Of a stretch of DNA of 37,946 bases, positions 23,930 through 33,973 are shown piece after piece. The stretch covers positions 1 to 37,946 of IMG/VR virus record IMGVR_UViG_3300009163_000006, one strand, 5' to 3'. The notes beneath the pieces were generated by a model, which was not told where the DNA came from, did not search any database, and worked only from the letters and a program-made list of their open reading frames with translations. Both the position numbers and the translations under genes were made by a program. The stretch's first letter is position 1, and every line of letters begins with the position of its first letter. Source of the stretch: a virus.

Positions 23930-24418
23930 TCACGCTGTGCCGTATGCCTCGGAAAGCCGCTGTAAAGCTGCCTTTAGTTGAAACGACGCTGTGCCGCGGC
24001 GCCATTTCCGAACTGCGTCGTATTCGTGCAACGGAAAGCCTTTGATCACCACCCAGTTGACAACACCCTCGCTCGCCGCGAGCCCCATCGCCTGACACCC
24101 ACGACGCCAGCAGTCGGCGGCAGACAGAGCGCGTTCCTGCGGTGCGAGCCATACGCCGCCAGTCGACGAGAACGGGACATCGCGACCGAACGGCAACGGG
24201 CCCAGGCCGCGACCCGCACCAATGTGCTGGTGAGCCTGGAGGTATATCCGTGCCGCCTGGCGCTGACCGGGCGTCATGTCGATCGCGTCCAGCGTGTCAG
24301 CCCGCCTGGCGCGCCGAGTGCTGACGGTCGGTGAGACTGCAACATCCTCGATGACGACGGCCGGTCCGAAGCCAGTGCCGTGGTCGACGCCTGGATCAGG
24401 TTTAAATTTTCGCGCCAT
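23930..24418 (-). CDS. DUF6456-like regulatory protein
   Basis: 162 aa from the ATG at 24418 (TGATG overlap with the gene upstream). The middle region (DMTPGQRQAARIYLQAHQ) and the C-terminus (SAADCWRRGCQAMG, then VNWVVIKGFPLHEYDAVRKW and LKAALQRLSEAYG) have the layout of the DUF6456 domain, common in alphaproteobacterial prophages and in some chromosomal regulators. In the DUF6456 family a helix pair 'R...al...G......l...C.f..gL...E...GWP...AK..L...L..L..hYG' is shared. Its function is not known; a late-operon regulator is plausible from its place just before the packaging genes, coupled to two HTH proteins. Match strength is moderate. Confidence 0.6.
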   Translation of the reverse strand: MARKFKPDPGVDHGTGFGPAVVIEDVAVSPTVSTRRARRADTLDAIDMTPGQRQAARIYLQAHQHIGAGRGLGPLPFGRDVPFSSTGGVWLAPQERALSAADCWRRGCQAMGLAASEGVVNWVVIKGFPLHEYDAVRKWRRGTASFQLKAALQRLSEAYGTA

Positions 24419-24927
24419 CAATTATCCTCTCGAAAAGTCAAAACGCCACCCCTGCGGCAGGGCTCGCCATCGAGGAGTGTGCCGGCGGTGATCAGGCCCC
24501 AGGTGAGCGGGTGACCGACTGGGAGTGGATCTGATGCGAGCTCACGGAGCGACCCGTCAGCGCGGACTGTGGGAGGAGACGAGATGCGGGTGCGGACCGG
24601 CTTGACCCGATGCCGGATGTGATAACTGATCGTGTCCGGCTTGATTCCGGTCGCCTTGGCCATCGACACGATCGTCGAGCCCTTGGCCACCTCGGCGCGG
24701 ATAAACACGTCGAGCGCCGGCGTGATCGTGCGCTGTGTCTCAAGTTGCACACCAGCGGCCTCGCGCAGATGGCGCAGCTTGACTTGCACCGCGCCAACCG
24801 ATCGGTTCTGCGACGCGCACAGTATCCGCAGCGCCTCGCCCCTGAGGGATTTTATGACGTAGGGCGCGATCTCGGCGAGTTGCTCAGCCGACCATCGAAT
24901 GCGTTGGTCGTCCTCAACAGACGGCAT
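24418..24927 (-). CDS. HTH DNA-binding protein, paralog 1
   Basis: 169 aa. The N-terminus has a Myb/GcrA-like HTH (IRWSAEQLAEIAPYV, then ASQNRSVGAVQVKLRHLREA), the middle a second HTH of resolvase type (KGSTIVSMAKATGIKPDTIS), and the C-terminus a conserved tail SDPLPVGHPLTWGLITAG. It aligns along its whole length with the next gene upstream (24914-25366), so the pair is a diverged tandem duplication. GcrA-like HTHs are typical of Alphaproteobacteria. Both overlap their neighbours by translation coupling and lie between the ATPase and the packaging genes, so they are candidates for switching on late expression. That role is inference. Confidence 0.75.
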   Translation of the reverse strand: MPSVEDDQRIRWSAEQLAEIAPYVIKSLRGEALRILCASQNRSVGAVQVKLRHLREAAGVQLETQRTITPALDVFIRAEVAKGSTIVSMAKATGIKPDTISYHIRHRVKPVRTRISSPPTVRADGSLRELASDPLPVGHPLTWGLITAGTLLDGEPCRRGGVLTFREDN

Positions 24928-25366
24928 ATCCCAAACCCTCCAAAATCGTCCCCTGCGTGATCAGGGACCAGGAGATCGAATGGCCGGCCGGGAGCGGGTC
25001 CCATGAGCGGGTTTGAGGACGGACCGGTGCGACAACGACTGGCACGATCGCAGCGGTCCGGACTTTGGTGAGCGTTTCGATGCGCCGCCTGCAAATACCA
25101 GTCGTCCGGCAGATCGACGTCACAGTTTCGCCTGATGCGGCCCGCGCCTGGATTGAGGCGATCCGCTCAGGAGACAGGATGGCGCGCGGCTGGTTCAGCT
25201 GCACTCCGGCCTGGCGCCGCATGGTCAGCATTTTTGTTTTGACGCCCTCCAGCGTGCGGCCGGTCTTGTCGGCGAGGGCTCGCACCACTTTGGCGGGGAG
25301 CGGGATCGAGATGTAAGGCGTGAGGACGGCTACGTCGGCGGGGAGCCATTTTGCGTGGTTGGTCAT
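24914..25366 (-). CDS. HTH DNA-binding protein, paralog 2
   Basis: 150 aa. It shares with 24418-24927 the first HTH (ALADKTGRTLEGVKTKMLTM), a central HTH (SGETVTSICRTTGICRRRIE), the linker RRQAGVQLNQPRAILSPERI, and the C-terminal motif WDPLPAGHSISWSLITQGT. The start is the ATG at 25366, overlapping the upstream stop by ATGA; the stop lies inside the start of paralog 1 (14-base overlap). Identity between the two is modest outside the motifs, so the duplication is old or the copies have specialised. A DNA-binding role is well supported; the target is unknown. Confidence 0.75.
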   Translation of the reverse strand: MTNHAKWLPADVAVLTPYISIPLPAKVVRALADKTGRTLEGVKTKMLTMRRQAGVQLNQPRAILSPERIASIQARAASGETVTSICRTTGICRRRIETLTKVRTAAIVPVVVAPVRPQTRSWDPLPAGHSISWSLITQGTILEGLGYAVC

Positions 25367-25539
25367 TTGGAGACATCACCAAATGTCCGGGCGCCATAAC
25401 CGGACATCGGAGGGATATATCGTAGATATATACCCCCCGATTGATGTCCGGCTTGTCCGGGTGCCTGAGTCCGGGTCTGTCCGGGTCTGTCCGGGTTAAT
25501 GTCCGGGTTAATGTCCGGGTTAATGTCCGGGGTTTTCAT
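25363..25539 (-). CDS. Small low-complexity protein with DINP repeats
   Basis: 58 aa from the ATG at 25539, with GAGGGG about 8 bases upstream. It opens MKTPDINPDINPDINPDRP and goes on GQTRTQAPGQAGHQS, ending GYGARTFGDVSK. The stop overlaps the start of the HTH gene (ATGA). The repeats are made by 12-bp copies of GTCCGGGTTAAT read in antisense. Translation signals support a real gene, but the protein could also be a by-product of selection on the DNA repeats, which form a cluster that looks like an origin of replication. I do not recognise a domain. Confidence 0.5.
   Translation of the reverse strand: MKTPDINPDINPDINPDRPGQTRTQAPGQAGHQSGGIYLRYIPPMSGYGARTFGDVSK
25383..25531. repeat. GTCCGG repeat cluster, possible replication origin
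   Basis: The motif GTCCGG occurs about ten times in 150 bases. The best copies are GTCCGGGTCT at 25469 and 25479 (10-bp period), GTCCGGGTTAAT at 25489, 25501 and 25513 (12-bp period), and GTCCGGGG at 25525. An inverted pair ATGTCCGG-N9-CCGGACAT occupies 25383-25407, and an A/T-rich dyad ATATATC-gta-GATATAT occupies 25415-25431. Repeats plus an A/T-rich segment next to a RepA-like ATPase gene look like an origin, although most of the cluster is inside a small ORF. Confidence 0.5.
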
Positions 25540-25540
25540 A

Positions 25541-26674
25541 TCAATTCCCCTCTTTTTTATTGCGGTAAATGATCCAAACTCGGTCATTCGACATACCGAC
25601 ACGGTGCGCGTTAATGAGGTCCGTAGATGCCCGAACGAACGCCTTTCGTTTCGTTTCCTGCGCCGATCCGGGCATGGCTTTTTCGTAGAAAGCCGTCCTC
25701 CACCAGGATGAATGAACGGAAACGCACCCAGACGGCAGGCCATGGACCCCCGTTTCGCCATGTTCCGCGATAATGGTGGTGAGCACTTCGAGAGCGCGCT
25801 GGGCATGCCCTGAGAGCGCCTTGTGGCGTGTTGTGGTCTCGGAACTGACCTCTTCATGCTTCACTGAGCACGTCGTCACCGCCTCGCCATGGCGGTTGAG
25901 CCCAATTTCGCAAACATCGAGACTGAATGCGAAAGCGTCTCCTTTCTTCATTTCCCGTTGTTTTACTATGGTCGCAACGCGCGTTTCACCGTCCTCTCCT
26001 ACTGTTACCTCAATTTCCGTATCGATTGCTGCTCGCAACGAAGAATGGCCGCGCGCGCCCTTGGCTGCGTCTTTGCCGCTGTGATGAATAAATTTTACGG
26101 CAGACTTCGTCGCATTACGGATGCGATCCATGTTTCCGACCAGCGCGCCCATATCCTCTGGGGCGTTCTCATTGCCGCCTGCCATGGCGCGCGCCAGGGT
26201 GTCGATCACAACTAGCTTTACGGGAATGCCCATGCGTTTGGCGGCGCGATGAATGGCGTCGATCAGATTTTCGGTGTCGGCATTGGGGTCTAATAGATTG
26301 ATAGACGCCGGGATCGCGGCAAAATAGACGGGGCCTGTAAGTGTATCGTGCTGAGCTTTCCATGCGGCGACTCGGTTTCGGAAGCCATGACCACCCTCAA
26401 GAACGCAGTAGATAACGCCGCCCTGCTCGACGCGGCGACCATTCCACGGTATGCCGGCAGCGATGCAAAGAGCAAGATCAGTCACCCAGAACGTCTTTCC
26501 GCTGTTGCTCTCGCCGTAAACCACGATCGACGATTGTTCGACCAGAACGCCCTGGACGAAATCACGAGCATCTAGCGATATGTGAATGTCATCAAAGTAT
26601 TCGAGTGGTAACGGCGGCGTATCACCGCCAGTCGCCCACCCATCAAGACCGGCACCGGGTCGTTGATAATTCAT
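25541..26674 (-). CDS. RepA-like AAA ATPase (RecA-fold, replication)
   Basis: 377 aa from the ATG at 26674, which overlaps the upstream stop by ATGA; an ATG at 26686 is also in frame. It is a RecA-fold ATPase of the AAA_25/RepA type. Walker A is GESNSGKT at residues 54-61, then an EGGHGFRNRVAAWK segment, Walker B LVVIDTLARAMAGGNEN, a sensor-like KFIHHSGKD, and the arginine-finger-like RGHSSLRAAIDTEIEV. Such proteins act as hexameric replicative helicases or loaders in plasmids and phages. The C-terminal 100 residues look like a winged-helix DNA-binding part (TKRKAFVRASTDLINAHRVG). It is followed by the GTCCGG cluster, in keeping with a replication role. Confidence 0.85.
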   Translation of the reverse strand: MNYQRPGAGLDGWATGGDTPPLPLEYFDDIHISLDARDFVQGVLVEQSSIVVYGESNSGKTFWVTDLALCIAAGIPWNGRRVEQGGVIYCVLEGGHGFRNRVAAWKAQHDTLTGPVYFAAIPASINLLDPNADTENLIDAIHRAAKRMGIPVKLVVIDTLARAMAGGNENAPEDMGALVGNMDRIRNATKSAVKFIHHSGKDAAKGARGHSSLRAAIDTEIEVTVGEDGETRVATIVKQREMKKGDAFAFSLDVCEIGLNRHGEAVTTCSVKHEEVSSETTTRHKALSGHAQRALEVLTTIIAEHGETGVHGLPSGCVSVHSSWWRTAFYEKAMPGSAQETKRKAFVRASTDLINAHRVGMSNDRVWIIYRNKKEGN

Positions 26675-27099
26675 TTTGAAGCCCATTTTGCCCGCCACGC
26701 GCCAATGCTGAGGGCTTCCGCGCACATTTCTACCGTCGCCGGGGGTGTCATATTTTTAGCCAGCGCCACCATGCGCTGTTTGATTTCCAGCAGAGGAGCC
26801 CGGGCTCGGTGCCCCTCCTCGGCCAGACTTGCCAGTGCCCTCTCCTGCGCCATCTGAGCGCGACGTCGGGCCAGAAGGATGCCACTGGCGTGCTCCCGCA
26901 TGTCCCACACCAAGCGTGTTTGCAGCCCTCGCCGGTCAACCGTGGGCAGCGCGGTGACACCTTCTTCGATCACGAACCCAAGCGTCAGTTGCGCGTCCTC
27001 GTCGGTGAGATGCTCGTCCGCCACCAACTCACCCAGTCGGCGAGCCGTGGCGCGATGCTTCTTGAGGCGGTGATCGTCGAAGATGTATGGGGTGCTCAT
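26671..27099 (-). CDS. Hypothetical protein
   Basis: 142 aa, coupled at both ends (ATGA with the gene upstream, ATGA with the ATPase downstream). It is helical and charged throughout: HRLKKHRATARRLGELVADE, then RAQMAQERALASLAEEGHRA, ending LSIGAWRAKWASK. No domain recognised. The pattern of alternating acidic and basic helices is seen in small phage proteins that bind replication factors. Its position directly before the RepA-like ATPase allows a role as its loader or partner, but there is no sequence evidence for this. Confidence 0.65.
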   Translation of the reverse strand: MSTPYIFDDHRLKKHRATARRLGELVADEHLTDEDAQLTLGFVIEEGVTALPTVDRRGLQTRLVWDMREHASGILLARRRAQMAQERALASLAEEGHRARAPLLEIKQRMVALAKNMTPPATVEMCAEALSIGAWRAKWASK

Positions 27100-27473
27100 G
27101 GCGTGCCGCGCGAGCGCCGGACTTTTTCGTAAATCCGGTTCAGAACCGCGATTTGCTTTTCTGATGGTTCACGATCCCGACCTGTCATATCGTCGCAGAA
27201 TTTAAACTCCCATTGCGTAAGGAGTTCGGTGTCGGACAAACAAAACCACGCCTTCCTCTGCCAATCCTGCCCCGACTCTTGTCGTGGTGCTTCCTTTTCT
27301 GGGCGAGACAGCGCAGGAATGATCACTTGTTCCCACGTCAGGCGGTGACGCTTTACCAACTCGTCGGCCTTCTTTGCAGCCGCTGCGCGTTCGCCATCAA
27401 AATTGCTGCCAAGCATTCCGAGTATGTGGACGAGGCGTTTTAAATCAGCGGGCGGGATCATGGTTGTGCTCAT
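27096..27473 (-). CDS. Hypothetical protein, DUF2786-like N-terminus
   Basis: 125 aa using the ATG at 27473 (ATGA overlap with the upstream stop). A start at 27482 is possible but breaks the coupling. The first 50 residues, LKRLVHILGMLGSNFDGERA, then AAKKADELVKRHRLTWEQVI, follow the pattern of DUF2786-type phage proteins, where 'l.kil.ml.s.f.gEaa.Aa.ka..l....gltw..v' is common. The C-terminal part (DWQRKAWFCLSDTELLTQWE, then REPSEKQIAVLNRIYEKVRR) is a recurrent tail in phage proteins that ends with the same 'LS.kQ...L..I..kv' signature. The function is unknown. It belongs to the pre-replication block. Confidence 0.7.
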   Translation of the reverse strand: MSTTMIPPADLKRLVHILGMLGSNFDGERAAAAKKADELVKRHRLTWEQVIIPALSRPEKEAPRQESGQDWQRKAWFCLSDTELLTQWEFKFCDDMTGRDREPSEKQIAVLNRIYEKVRRSRGTP

Positions 27474-27691
27474 CCCGCCCAAACCTTCCGACCCATCTGC
27501 TCAATCACTGAATCCCACACCGGATCAGACGGCGCGCAAATCTCAGCCCGCAGCACCCCATCCGCGCCCTTGTGCCAGCCGCGCACGTGCCAGCCAGCCG
27601 CGCCGACGTGCATCGTCCCGGCGTATGATCCGTCGTCCTGCTTGGCGACAGACAGGGTAAAGTTGATCCACTGACCGTCGGGCGGGTTCAT
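27470..27691 (-). CDS. Hypothetical small protein
   Basis: 73 aa beginning MNPPDGQWINFTLSVAKQDD, then GSYAGTMHVGAAGWHVRGWH. It is a single compact beta-rich unit with an aromatic core (five Trp in 73 residues). The 'kqDdGsy.GtI...' strand loosely recalls DUF736-type proteins, but the rest does not fit, so I leave it unassigned. It overlaps the VRR-NUC gene upstream by ATGA (27688-27691) and the next gene by ATGA. Conserved coupling supports a real gene. Confidence 0.6.
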   Translation of the reverse strand: MNPPDGQWINFTLSVAKQDDGSYAGTMHVGAAGWHVRGWHKGADGVLRAEICAPSDPVWDSVIEQMGRKVWAG

Positions 27692-28206
27692 CCGAACACC
27701 CCACGCGCCCGAGCCCGAGCCATCACCGCCAGTTTCGCCGGCTCAGCTTTCGCCTTCTGTGGCGCAGCTGGGCGGCGTGACTTTTTGACCGGCTCAGCCG
27801 TGGCCAGTTCGCGGTCGTATCCGCTGGCGACGTGCGGCGCCGTAAGGGAAAGCGGCACACCGTGTTGGTGCAGAACGGTCGCCAGACCCTCGACGGAGCG
27901 GACGACAGACCACTGAAACCCGTTGGCGATCATGGCGCGGCCAAAATCTTCCTGAGCAGCGGATGCCGTGTTCGTGCCGGCCTTGAGTTCGACGCCGATG
28001 AACCGACCGCGATACCAGATCATGATGTCGCTGAGCCCCGTCTTGACGCCCTGGGCCTTGAGCCGCTGCCACTCGCGAGCCCGCTGTGCAGGCGTGCCAG
28101 AGTGGGCGCGACCGTGTTCGATGGCGGTAAAAGTGCCCGGCGACGGCAGGAATTGATCCAACCACATGCGGCAGCGAGCCCGGAGACGTGCCTCAGGTTG
28201 CGCCAT
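27688..28206 (-). CDS. VRR-NUC domain nuclease
   Basis: 172 aa from the ATG at 28206, overlapping the end of the gene upstream by 14 bases; the in-frame region up to 28341 lies inside that gene. It has the VRR-NUC fold of the restriction-endonuclease superfamily: AIEHGRAHSG, then KTGLSDIMIWYRGRFIGVEL, where the Asp, and further on ELKAGTNTAS with Glu and Lys, form the catalytic D-ExK, followed by QEDFGRAMIANGFQWSVVRS. Phage VRR-NUC proteins resolve branched DNA during replication and recombination. The C-terminal 40 residues are basic and Ala-rich (RRPAAPQKAKAEPAKLAVMA). It lies in the replication block, away from the plus-strand recombination genes. Confidence 0.85.
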   Translation of the reverse strand: MAQPEARLRARCRMWLDQFLPSPGTFTAIEHGRAHSGTPAQRAREWQRLKAQGVKTGLSDIMIWYRGRFIGVELKAGTNTASAAQEDFGRAMIANGFQWSVVRSVEGLATVLHQHGVPLSLTAPHVASGYDRELATAEPVKKSRRPAAPQKAKAEPAKLAVMARARARGVFG

Positions 28207-28534
28207 CACCCGCCCCAAAAAGCCCTCGGCCGTCGCGTGGTTCGTTAGGCACCGCTCCGGCCGAGGTAAGGTTGGCGTCCTGGCCGTCAGGAAAGGAGCA
28301 ACGGGCAGGAGCGGCACCACACAGCGCGGGATGCAGCGCATCGGGCCGGAGCCCGATCTGGGAAATCAACACCTCTAGATACTGCGCCAGGTCCATCGCC
28401 TCTTCCTGCGCGTGGATCAGCCACTGAAGCTGCGACAAATCGGTCCGATCCAAGCCGACGCCGTATTTCCGCCGGCCAAACTGACTGCGGGCCTCCATTT
28501 TTGCGGTGACGGCTGCGACGATTGGGTCCGTCAC
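28193..28534 (-). CDS. MazG-like nucleotide pyrophosphohydrolase-like protein
   Basis: 113 aa. Residues 15-55, FGRRKYGVGLDRTDLSQLQW, then LIHAQEEAMDLAQYLEVLI, match a group of short phage proteins related to dATP/dGTP pyrophosphohydrolases, with the acidic EE-x-x-D metal-binding motif of the all-alpha NTP-PPase fold. The C-terminal 50 residues (from about 62, GLRPDALHPALCGAAPARCS) are Ala/Gly-rich with no pattern and may be a divergent tail. If active, it would remove unwanted nucleotides or the alarmone of host defence from the pool. The gene overlaps both neighbours (28531-28534 ATGA; 14 bases into the nuclease gene). Confidence 0.65.
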   Translation of the reverse strand: MTDPIVAAVTAKMEARSQFGRRKYGVGLDRTDLSQLQWLIHAQEEAMDLAQYLEVLISQIGLRPDALHPALCGAAPARCSFPDGQDANLTSAGAVPNEPRDGRGLFGAGDGAT

Positions 28535-29792: not shown

Positions 29793-29923
29793 ACACCGAC
29801 GATACCCCCGCTTGTTAAACGAAACTGTAAGCTGCTCCGTCGATCGGTCGAGATGCAAAACGCCCGAGGCAGATCGTCACAATTAAACAATTGACAAACG
29901 AAAAGCCCAACCCACATCTTCCG

Positions 29924-29971
29924 CCATCGCCATCGCCATCGCCATCGCCATCGCCATCGCCATCGCCACAG
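29924..29971. repeat. Hexamer array (CCATCG)x8
   Basis: Eight exact tandem copies of CCATCG. The length in multiples of six with no interruption suggests recent slippage. It lies outside coding sequence upstream of the rightward promoter and may change in copy number between phage populations. Confidence 0.9.
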
Positions 29972-32793: not shown

Positions 32794-33218
32794 GCCGTTA
32801 CGACGTATCGCAAGACATGCGCGTGGTGTGGTTCTTGCTCGCGCCGGAGCGCGAAATGCTCGCCGCTGAAATGGTGGCGCGCAACCTGAATGCTCGGGCC
32901 GAGCATCCGATAGAAGGCTATGTCGGGTGGATGTCGTCGCTTGATTGGGAGCCCGACGAGCCCGACGACATTCCTCCCGACGACGTGGGCCGAATCATCA
33001 CGGTTCACGCCACGATCCCCAACCCTGAGTTTTTCGCTATCGCGGCGGCGCTCGGGGATGAGGGGATGATGGACGTGTCTCTCAATGGATCGGCGTTCAG
33101 TGCAGAAATCCGAACCGGGATACCGCCTCAGATGGTGATCTACACCGATCGCCTTGAAAGCGCGCTGGGGTCCAGGATCGCAAAAGCGGTCAAGATTTTG
33201 GAGGGTGAAACGCCATGA
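32790..33218 (+). CDS. Hypothetical early protein
   Basis: 142 aa from the ATG at 32790 (ATGA overlap). The N-terminal 60 residues, MSRYDVSQDMRVVWFLLAPE, then REMLAAEMVARNLNAR, contain an acidic stretch (DWEPDEPDDIPPDDVGRI). The middle has VHATIPNPEFFAIAAALGDE and the end RTGIPPQMVIYTDRLESALG. The strongly acidic segment could mimic DNA or bind a basic partner. No domain recognised. It is followed by the pentapeptide-repeat gene with an ATGA overlap. Confidence 0.6.
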   Translation: MSRYDVSQDMRVVWFLLAPEREMLAAEMVARNLNARAEHPIEGYVGWMSSLDWEPDEPDDIPPDDVGRIITVHATIPNPEFFAIAAALGDEGMMDVSLNGSAFSAEIRTGIPPQMVIYTDRLESALGSRIAKAVKILEGETP

Positions 33219-33973
33219 CCGACATTATCAAAGACGCGGTGCGGGCGGAGGATGCGCCCGGAATGTTTCAGATCAAACAGCGCTTTACCGGCGACGTGTT
33301 ATTCGAGTGCAAACTGCCCGTCGAAGTTGAAACAGCACCGTATAAACTGAAGCTTGGGTTTGCGGTCAAGGCTGCGGTGAAAGCCTGTGCCAATCTGGCC
33401 CGTGCCAATCTGGCCGATGCCGATCTGGCCTGTGCCAATCTGGCCCGTGCCAATCTGGCCGGTGCCAATCTGGCCTGTGCCAATCTGGCCGGTGCCAATC
33501 TGGTCTGTGCCAATCTGGCCCGTGCCAATCTGGCCGGTGCCAATCTGGTCGATGCCAATCTGGTCGATGCCGATCTGGCCGGTGCCAATCTGGCCTGTGC
33601 CAATCTGGTCGATGCCAATCTGGCCGGTGCCAATCTGGTCGATGCCAATCTGGTCGATGCCGATCTGGCCAGCGCCGATCTGGCCGGTGCCAATCTGGCC
33701 CGTGCCGATCTGGCCTGTGCCAATCTGGCCCGTGCCAATCTGGCCGGTGCCAATCTGGTCGATGCAGGGCAACGCAGCGACGGTTACAGGTTCATTGGCT
33801 GGGTCATAGGCGGCGTTCTGCAAATTCGCGCTGGGTGCCGCAACTTGTCGATTACTGAAGCCCGCAAACATTGGGCCAAGACTCGCGGCGGAACGCAACT
33901 CGGCGACGAAACAATGGTCATCCTCGACCATATTGAGCGAGTGGCAAAAATTCGGAGGCTGTTAAAATCATGA
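33215..33973 (+). CDS. Pentapeptide-repeat protein
   Basis: 252 aa. Residues 59-184 are 25 consecutive A-(N/D)-L-x-x pentapeptides, one of the cleanest arrays possible, forming a right-handed quadrilateral beta-helix. Proteins of this type (MfpA, Qnr) mimic DNA and bind type II topoisomerases, but the family has many roles. An N-terminal domain precedes the array (FQIKQRFTGDVLFECKLPVE) and a C-terminal one follows (YRFIGWVIGGVLQIRAGCRN, then LSITEARKHW). Both flanks belong to a known phage version of the family. The start overlaps the preceding gene (ATGA). The DNA repeat is nearly perfect, a sign of recent expansion. Confidence 0.85.
   Translation: MTDIIKDAVRAEDAPGMFQIKQRFTGDVLFECKLPVEVETAPYKLKLGFAVKAAVKACANLARANLADADLACANLARANLAGANLACANLAGANLVCANLARANLAGANLVDANLVDADLAGANLACANLVDANLAGANLVDANLVDADLASADLAGANLARADLACANLARANLAGANLVDAGQRSDGYRFIGWVIGGVLQIRAGCRNLSITEARKHWAKTRGGTQLGDETMVILDHIERVAKIRRLLKS
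33389..33766. repeat. 15-bp tandem coding repeats of the pentapeptide array
   Basis: About 25 copies of the unit GCCAATCTGGCCNGT with small variations (GCC to GAT at the N/D position, GGCC to GGTC at the last codons). The periodicity keeps every reading frame open on both strands, producing long but meaningless ORFs antisense to the gene. Confidence 0.9.

Follow-up and report, generated by a model that had tools for sequence, protein, structure and literature searches.

A cluster of short repeats at positions 25384-25531 of the window, by which we mean the entire 37946-nt stretch of viral DNA analysed here, is very probably the site at which a temperate phage starts its DNA replication. We consider it likely that this segment is the replication origin of the phage, that it is read by the protein encoded just upstream, and that an explanation combining helicase, winged helix and iterons holds as a whole. 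The window encodes a terminase large subunit, portal, capsid/major head and tail/tape measure proteins and an integrase.

A dense repeat array adjoins the end of an ATPase gene

The initial annotation had described about ten GTCCGG motifs packed into 150 bases. Our count is exactly ten sites (GTCCGG/CCGGAC), all at 25385-25530. No 150-bp stretch of the window is denser, and 100 dinucleotide shuffles yielded a maximum of four sites per 150 bp. GTCCGG occurs 39 times across this G+C-rich window against 33 expected; it is the clustering of the motif, not its overall frequency, that is unusual. Outside the array, the heptamers CCGGACA/TGTCCGG are found four times, approximately the number expected by chance, and never twice within 400 bp.

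The array directly adjoins the end of the ATPase gene at 25541, and the order of its elements from that stop codon is eight direct copies, a dyad, an inverted copy and one more direct copy. The eight direct iteron-like repeats (25445-25530, minus strand) read CCGGACA on the gene strand, apart from one copy that is CCGGACT, and are spaced by 12, 12, 12, 10, 10, 14 and 9 bp. Next comes an A/T-rich, G/C-flanked dyad (25409-25437), a candidate unwinding or hairpin element with ATATATC-gta-GATATAT at 25415-25431, and beyond it lie the inverted copy (25400-25406, plus strand; hexamer at 25400-25405) and the outer direct copy (25384-25390, minus strand). The 10- and 12-bp periods, the inverted pair, the perfect dyad and the position directly downstream of the ATPase gene, all of which had been noted earlier from the sequence, are therefore present as described. 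Rfam and tRNA scans gave no match.

The ATPase combines a RepA-like helicase with a predicted winged helix

The proposed initiator is a 377-aa protein encoded on the minus strand (25541-26674, with a GTG at 26725 as a possible alternative start), which matches the Pfam family AAA_25 (E=3.7e-36). When its AlphaFold2 model (pLDDT 79.7) was compared with RSF1010 RepA (1g8y) using Foldseek, the target-normalised TM-score was 0.71, with RAD51 and KaiC folds comparable by E-value. By fold, the protein thus has the RecA-like hexameric helicase core of the RSF1010 RepA/AAA_25 family, the hexamer itself being predicted. The earlier label "RepA-like" was apt insofar as it denotes this RSF1010-type helicase family; the reader function appears to reside in a fused winged helix.

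The last 100 amino acids, modelled alone with AlphaFold2 (pLDDT 88), have an H-E-H-H-E-E order, and in this model the C-terminus (approximately residues 286-371; 25562-25819, minus strand) is a winged helix of the form helix-strand-helix-helix-wing. The top Foldseek matches of this domain were mostly winged helix-turn-helix proteins (CRP, E2F/DP, NtcA), with probabilities of 0.9 or above and E-values of only 0.03-0.3. The predicted recognition helix H3, which is also marked by the covariation described below, spans residues 339-355 (25610-25660, minus strand) and carries R343 and K344 (25643-25648, minus strand) near its N-terminus.

Several relatives of this ATPase are fused to a primase domain, either an N-terminal PrimPol (loci L007, L013, L028 and L005) or a Toprim_3 domain (L365, phage CRP-406). 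The window ATPase has neither a PrimPol nor a Toprim domain, and no primase gene was recognised among the window proteins that were scanned. The neighbouring minus-strand genes at 26671-28341 encode DUF2786-like and VRR-NUC proteins, with no primase recognised there.

The array accompanies the ATPase gene in relatives while its sequence changes

To collect relatives, we scanned IMG/VR with the ATPase, which gave 23 loci, and obtained many more by alignment queries; a contig scan with the window protein returned two relatives only, and a genome search supplied prophages that were held out. Most relatives have the same layout directly 3' of the ATPase stop with a different repeat sequence, including CGGGACA, CCGGACA, CGTGACA, CGTAACA, CGCAACA, CCAGACA, ACGGACA and TGGGACA as well as GTATGAA, GTATAAA, ATCACAT, TGCACAA and others. 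Within 400 bp downstream of the gene, the best 7-mer reached five or more copies at 50 of 65 nonredundant loci, compared with 12 of 898 other 400-bp windows (p ~1e-58). With a threshold of at least four copies, 134 of 149 unique relatives had such a 7-mer, and in the remaining 15 no 7-mer exceeded three copies. A repeat cluster 3' of the helicase gene, as in an origin made up of a helicase-initiator and downstream iterons, is thus found more often than chance allows.

These relatives also allowed us to judge the 58-aa open reading frame (25363-25539, minus strand) that runs through the array and is the 3' portion of an open frame extending over 25363-25857. As the initial annotation had pointed out, the repeats encode DINP repeats in this frame, which is preceded by a plausible ribosome-binding site, so that they might exist as the coding sequence of a small DINP-repeat protein. 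We reject this reading, to which we assign a negligible probability, as relatives have other repeats with unrelated translations, and in relative L006, which keeps the dyad, the same frame contains three stops before the shared dyad segment. The recognition helix, moreover, tracks the DNA sequence. Conservation of the repeats only as protein had been named as grounds for abandoning an origin; what relatives conserve is the layout, and neither the DNA sequence nor the reading frame. The open reading frame is probably incidental.

The arrangement of the arrays is also shared. In relatives, the median distance from the ATPase stop to the first repeat is 7 bp, and same-strand repeat spacings cluster at 9, 10 and 12 bp, which is compatible with approximately one helical turn. 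At 31 loci having a clear palindrome, the repeats are oriented inwards, with 119 forward and 32 reverse copies on the left and 17 and 49, respectively, on the right (Fisher 2e-13). The palindromes vary in sequence while retaining symmetry (GGGTATATATCTACGATATATCCC, CCCCCCTTTAGGGGGG and others). When the repeats were masked, stems scoring at least 7 were present in 31 of 69 element regions and in 208 of 1238 controls, showing that the palindrome is enriched, though not universal, among relatives. The repeat sets thus flank a palindromic or melting centre, which was detected in part of the relatives. As many of these centres are G/C-rich hairpins just 3' of the gene, they could be taken for transcription terminators with the repeats incidental to them. 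We find this very unlikely, given that centres such as CCCCCCTTTAGGGGGG have no following T-run and that neither the orientation of the repeats in the arrays nor the covariation with the recognition helix would follow from a terminator.

The array occurs in phages of Rhizobium (16-3, RHph_X2_25), Roseobacter (CRP-831, CRP-406) and Klebsiella (VLCpiS11a) and in plasmid records from Xanthobacter, Methylobacterium (pMRAD08) and Klebsiella; it was absent from the distant relatives checked (Microcystis, Caulobacter GB2A, Gordonia Mahdia and a Polaromonas plasmid). In 16-3, the predicted origin spans 56,250-56,606. Five records were examined for further clusters, and each had one repeat cluster per genome. 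Two of the records that carry the array combine capsid, terminase and integrase genes with an AAA_25 gene. The 17-kb circular Klebsiella record pKp_Goe_795-4 (CP018459.1), in which the AAA_25 replication gene is followed by GTGCGGCA repeats, resembles a capsid-encoding phage satellite, and the 38-kb phage-like Caenibius plasmid record p1 (NZ_CP081845.1) has 12 copies of TGCGGAA just downstream of its AAA_25 gene.

The 67 proteins encoded downstream of the arrays fall into clusters of 12, 8, 3, 2 and 2 plus singletons. Downstream neighbours are therefore mostly unrelated between loci, and the array goes with the ATPase and not with a particular downstream gene. This bears on the possibility that the array is a regulatory operator, through which the winged-helix ATPase or another helix-turn-helix protein regulates the downstream operon or itself while replication starts elsewhere. 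The array does lie 5' of the next gene, which encodes a 150-aa HTH-like protein (24914-25366, minus strand) and is outside the element, and covariation shows that the ATPase reads the repeats, not what its binding does. An operator nevertheless seems unlikely to us, both because of the changing neighbours and because the array is located 3' of the ATPase gene, not at its promoter, and reaches up to 16 copies in paired orientation about a palindrome. A packaging (cos/pac) or partition site would be in keeping with the terminase genes 2 kb downstream in the window. We regard such a site as highly improbable, since array and ATPase stay together where the surroundings differ and since 16-3 has its annotated cos at the end of the genome, 3.6 kb from its array; as for partition, no ParB-like reader was found beside the array, and the covarying reader is the helicase.

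Two residues of the recognition helix covary with the repeat sequence

To identify the reader, we took 69 dereplicated loci whose repeat has the form NNNNACA and calculated mutual information between each repeat base and every variable column of the whole ATPase. Bases 1 and 2 of the repeat scored highest with residue 343, bases 3 and 4 with residue 344. K343 occurred with G at base 2 in 20 of 20 cases and Q343 with C at base 2 in 12 of 12. All 42 cases of a K or R at 344 had G at base 4, while V, T, S or A at 344 went mostly with A or T at base 4. R343 is found with either G or C and is uninformative; the window ATPase (R343/K344, repeat CCGGACA) has a combination that the rule allows.

As raw Fisher values ignore shared ancestry, we chose phylogenetically independent pairs, using non-overlapping paths on a tree of the AAA domain only (28 repeat-different and 16 repeat-same pairs). 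The column that best separated the two kinds of pair was 344, followed by 343: column 344 differed in 0.61 of repeat-different and 0.12 of same-repeat pairs (p 0.004), and column 343 in 0.71 and 0.25, respectively (p 0.005). In the pairs L281/L275 and L285/L030, the AAA domain is near-identical, and repeat and helix have changed jointly. In a held-out set of prophages from bacterial genomes and plasmid loci, the K/Q343 rule was obeyed in 7 of 8 cases, which alone is not significant on so few (p 0.14); the basic-344 rule, with its high base rate, was obeyed in 18 of 19. The exceptions were L387, where K343 goes with C, and L401, where K344 goes with T.

Because residues 343 and 344 covary with the repeats, with support from the phylogeny-controlled pairs and the held-out prophages, we take the helicase to be the repeat reader. 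These sequence comparisons strongly support recognition by the ATPase itself, and together with the structure models they point to its C-terminal DNA-binding domain as the part that reads the repeats. In two prophage loci (L389 and L390), the ATPase C-terminus cannot be aligned with the winged helix, yet CGGAACA arrays lie downstream, which suggests that other reader domains exist.

Probable origin function and proposed mechanism

We infer origin function from a reader that belongs to a replication family, from the presence of the array in plasmids and from a layout that matches tested origins of phage-inducible chromosomal islands (PICIs). The family of the reader comprises replicative helicases, which are fused to primases in relatives, and the array is carried by small plasmid records. 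In one of these, the 21-kb pMRAD08, which also looks phage-derived, AAA_25 was the sole replication-type Pfam match among ten proteins scanned. The initial annotation had proposed GC skew as a check; the skew extremes lie away from the array in the window, 16-3 and CRP-831, so that skew is uninformative as an origin marker here, probably since it follows gene direction.

In the mechanism that we propose, the recognition helix would bind CCGGACA iterons on both sides of the palindromic centre through residues 343/344, a step that the covariation supports. Once bound, protomers may form hexamers around the centre, be it A/T-rich or a hairpin, and these would melt it and expose single strands. 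Priming could be carried out by the fused PrimPol or Toprim domain in many relatives and, in the window phage, by a primase from elsewhere, probably host DnaG. Lineages would switch the repeat sequence and the recognition helix together.

We think it somewhat more probable than the contrary that these loci represent a widespread family of phages with a single RepA-like polypeptide as helicase and origin reader, and often as primase too, with the origin after its own gene and specificity set mainly by residues 343/344, and that the joint switching of repeats and helix defines replication-compatibility groups that may be predictable or swappable. If so, origins could be placed from sequence alone in many temperate phages, prophages and phage-like plasmids that lack an annotated origin, and each would be linked to a protein-DNA recognition rule open to testing.

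Relationship to known replication systems

The pri-rep-ori module of PICIs and SaPIs has an origin of the same place and form. The tested origin of EcCICFT073 lies immediately 3' of rep, with two iteron sets flanking an A/T-rich centre (PMC6092414), and its sequence shows repeats of the AGGTAGA type directly after the rep gene. In PICIs and SaPIs such as SaPIbov1, rep and primase are sometimes fused and the helicase C-terminus recognises the iterons (PMC6092414, PMC7581432). The EcCICFT073 Rep, however, is of the SF3 type (D5_N/Pox_D5) with no significant similarity to the AAA_25 ATPase of the window, and PICIs are satellites without full virion genes, whereas the window is a full phage. By helicase family and virion genes, the window element is therefore not a PICI, although it probably works like a PICI origin.

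RSF1010 (IncQ) shares the helicase fold of its RepA with the window ATPase, and its oriV contains iterons and short stem-loops (PMC4234260). In RSF1010 the RepA helicase, RepB' primase and RepC iteron binder are three proteins, whereas here helicase and reader form one polypeptide, to which primase is also fused in many relatives. No RepB- or RepC-like Pfam match was found among the window proteins scanned, which sets the phage apart from RSF1010/IncQ replicons. Phage P4 alpha is a primase and helicase in one protein, with a C-terminal winged helix for binding the origin repeats (PMC4234260); like pRN1 ORF904, it is a related design. The present family differs in being AAA_25/RepA-like, a primase domain is missing from the window protein, and where P4 has ori and crr, each genome here has a single array, with no further cluster resembling crr. 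In pRN1 ORF904 and BPP-1-type phages, the replication protein has a winged helix at its C-terminus and is followed downstream by the origin, which varies in sequence while its structure is conserved (PMC4234260), but those systems pair an SF3 helicase with a large stem-loop that has no iterons, in place of the iterons and small palindrome seen here.

Lambda O/P and Rep_3 iteron plasmids share the logic of iterons plus an A/T-rich element but use other initiator families; here no separate initiator or loader was identified, and neither the ATPase nor its neighbours gave a Rep_3-type Pfam match. Of the RepA-iteron system suggested initially, the iteron-like sites, the adjacent RepA-like reader (by covariation) and, probably, the origin role hold; its RepA is of the RSF1010 type and not a plasmid RepA/Rep_3 initiator. 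The principle that a helicase C-terminus recognises iterons downstream of its own gene is already known from SaPIs, SCCmec Cch2 and PICIs. In the open-access papers searched, no mapped origin of 16-3 came up, nor did any phage iterons linked to AAA_25; as far as this literature shows, the AAA_25 helicase type, its spread among temperate phages and prophages and the covariation of two residues with the repeats are new.

Other features of the window

The HTH-like protein encoded next to the array and the one encoded at 24418-24927 (minus strand) appear by eye to be paralogous to each other, with the common tail motif DPLPxGHxxxWxLITxGTxLxG, and both have weak matches to phrog_323, a D5-like transcriptional regulator. 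A perfect CGCCAT hexanucleotide tandem of 7.8 copies at 29922-29968 corresponds to a DGDGDG run in a minus-strand ORF. The strongest tandem-repeat signal of the window comes from approximately 25 copies of a 15-bp unit at 33383-33758 (plus strand), which encode a pentapeptide-repeat protein (33215-33973, Pfam E 4e-42).
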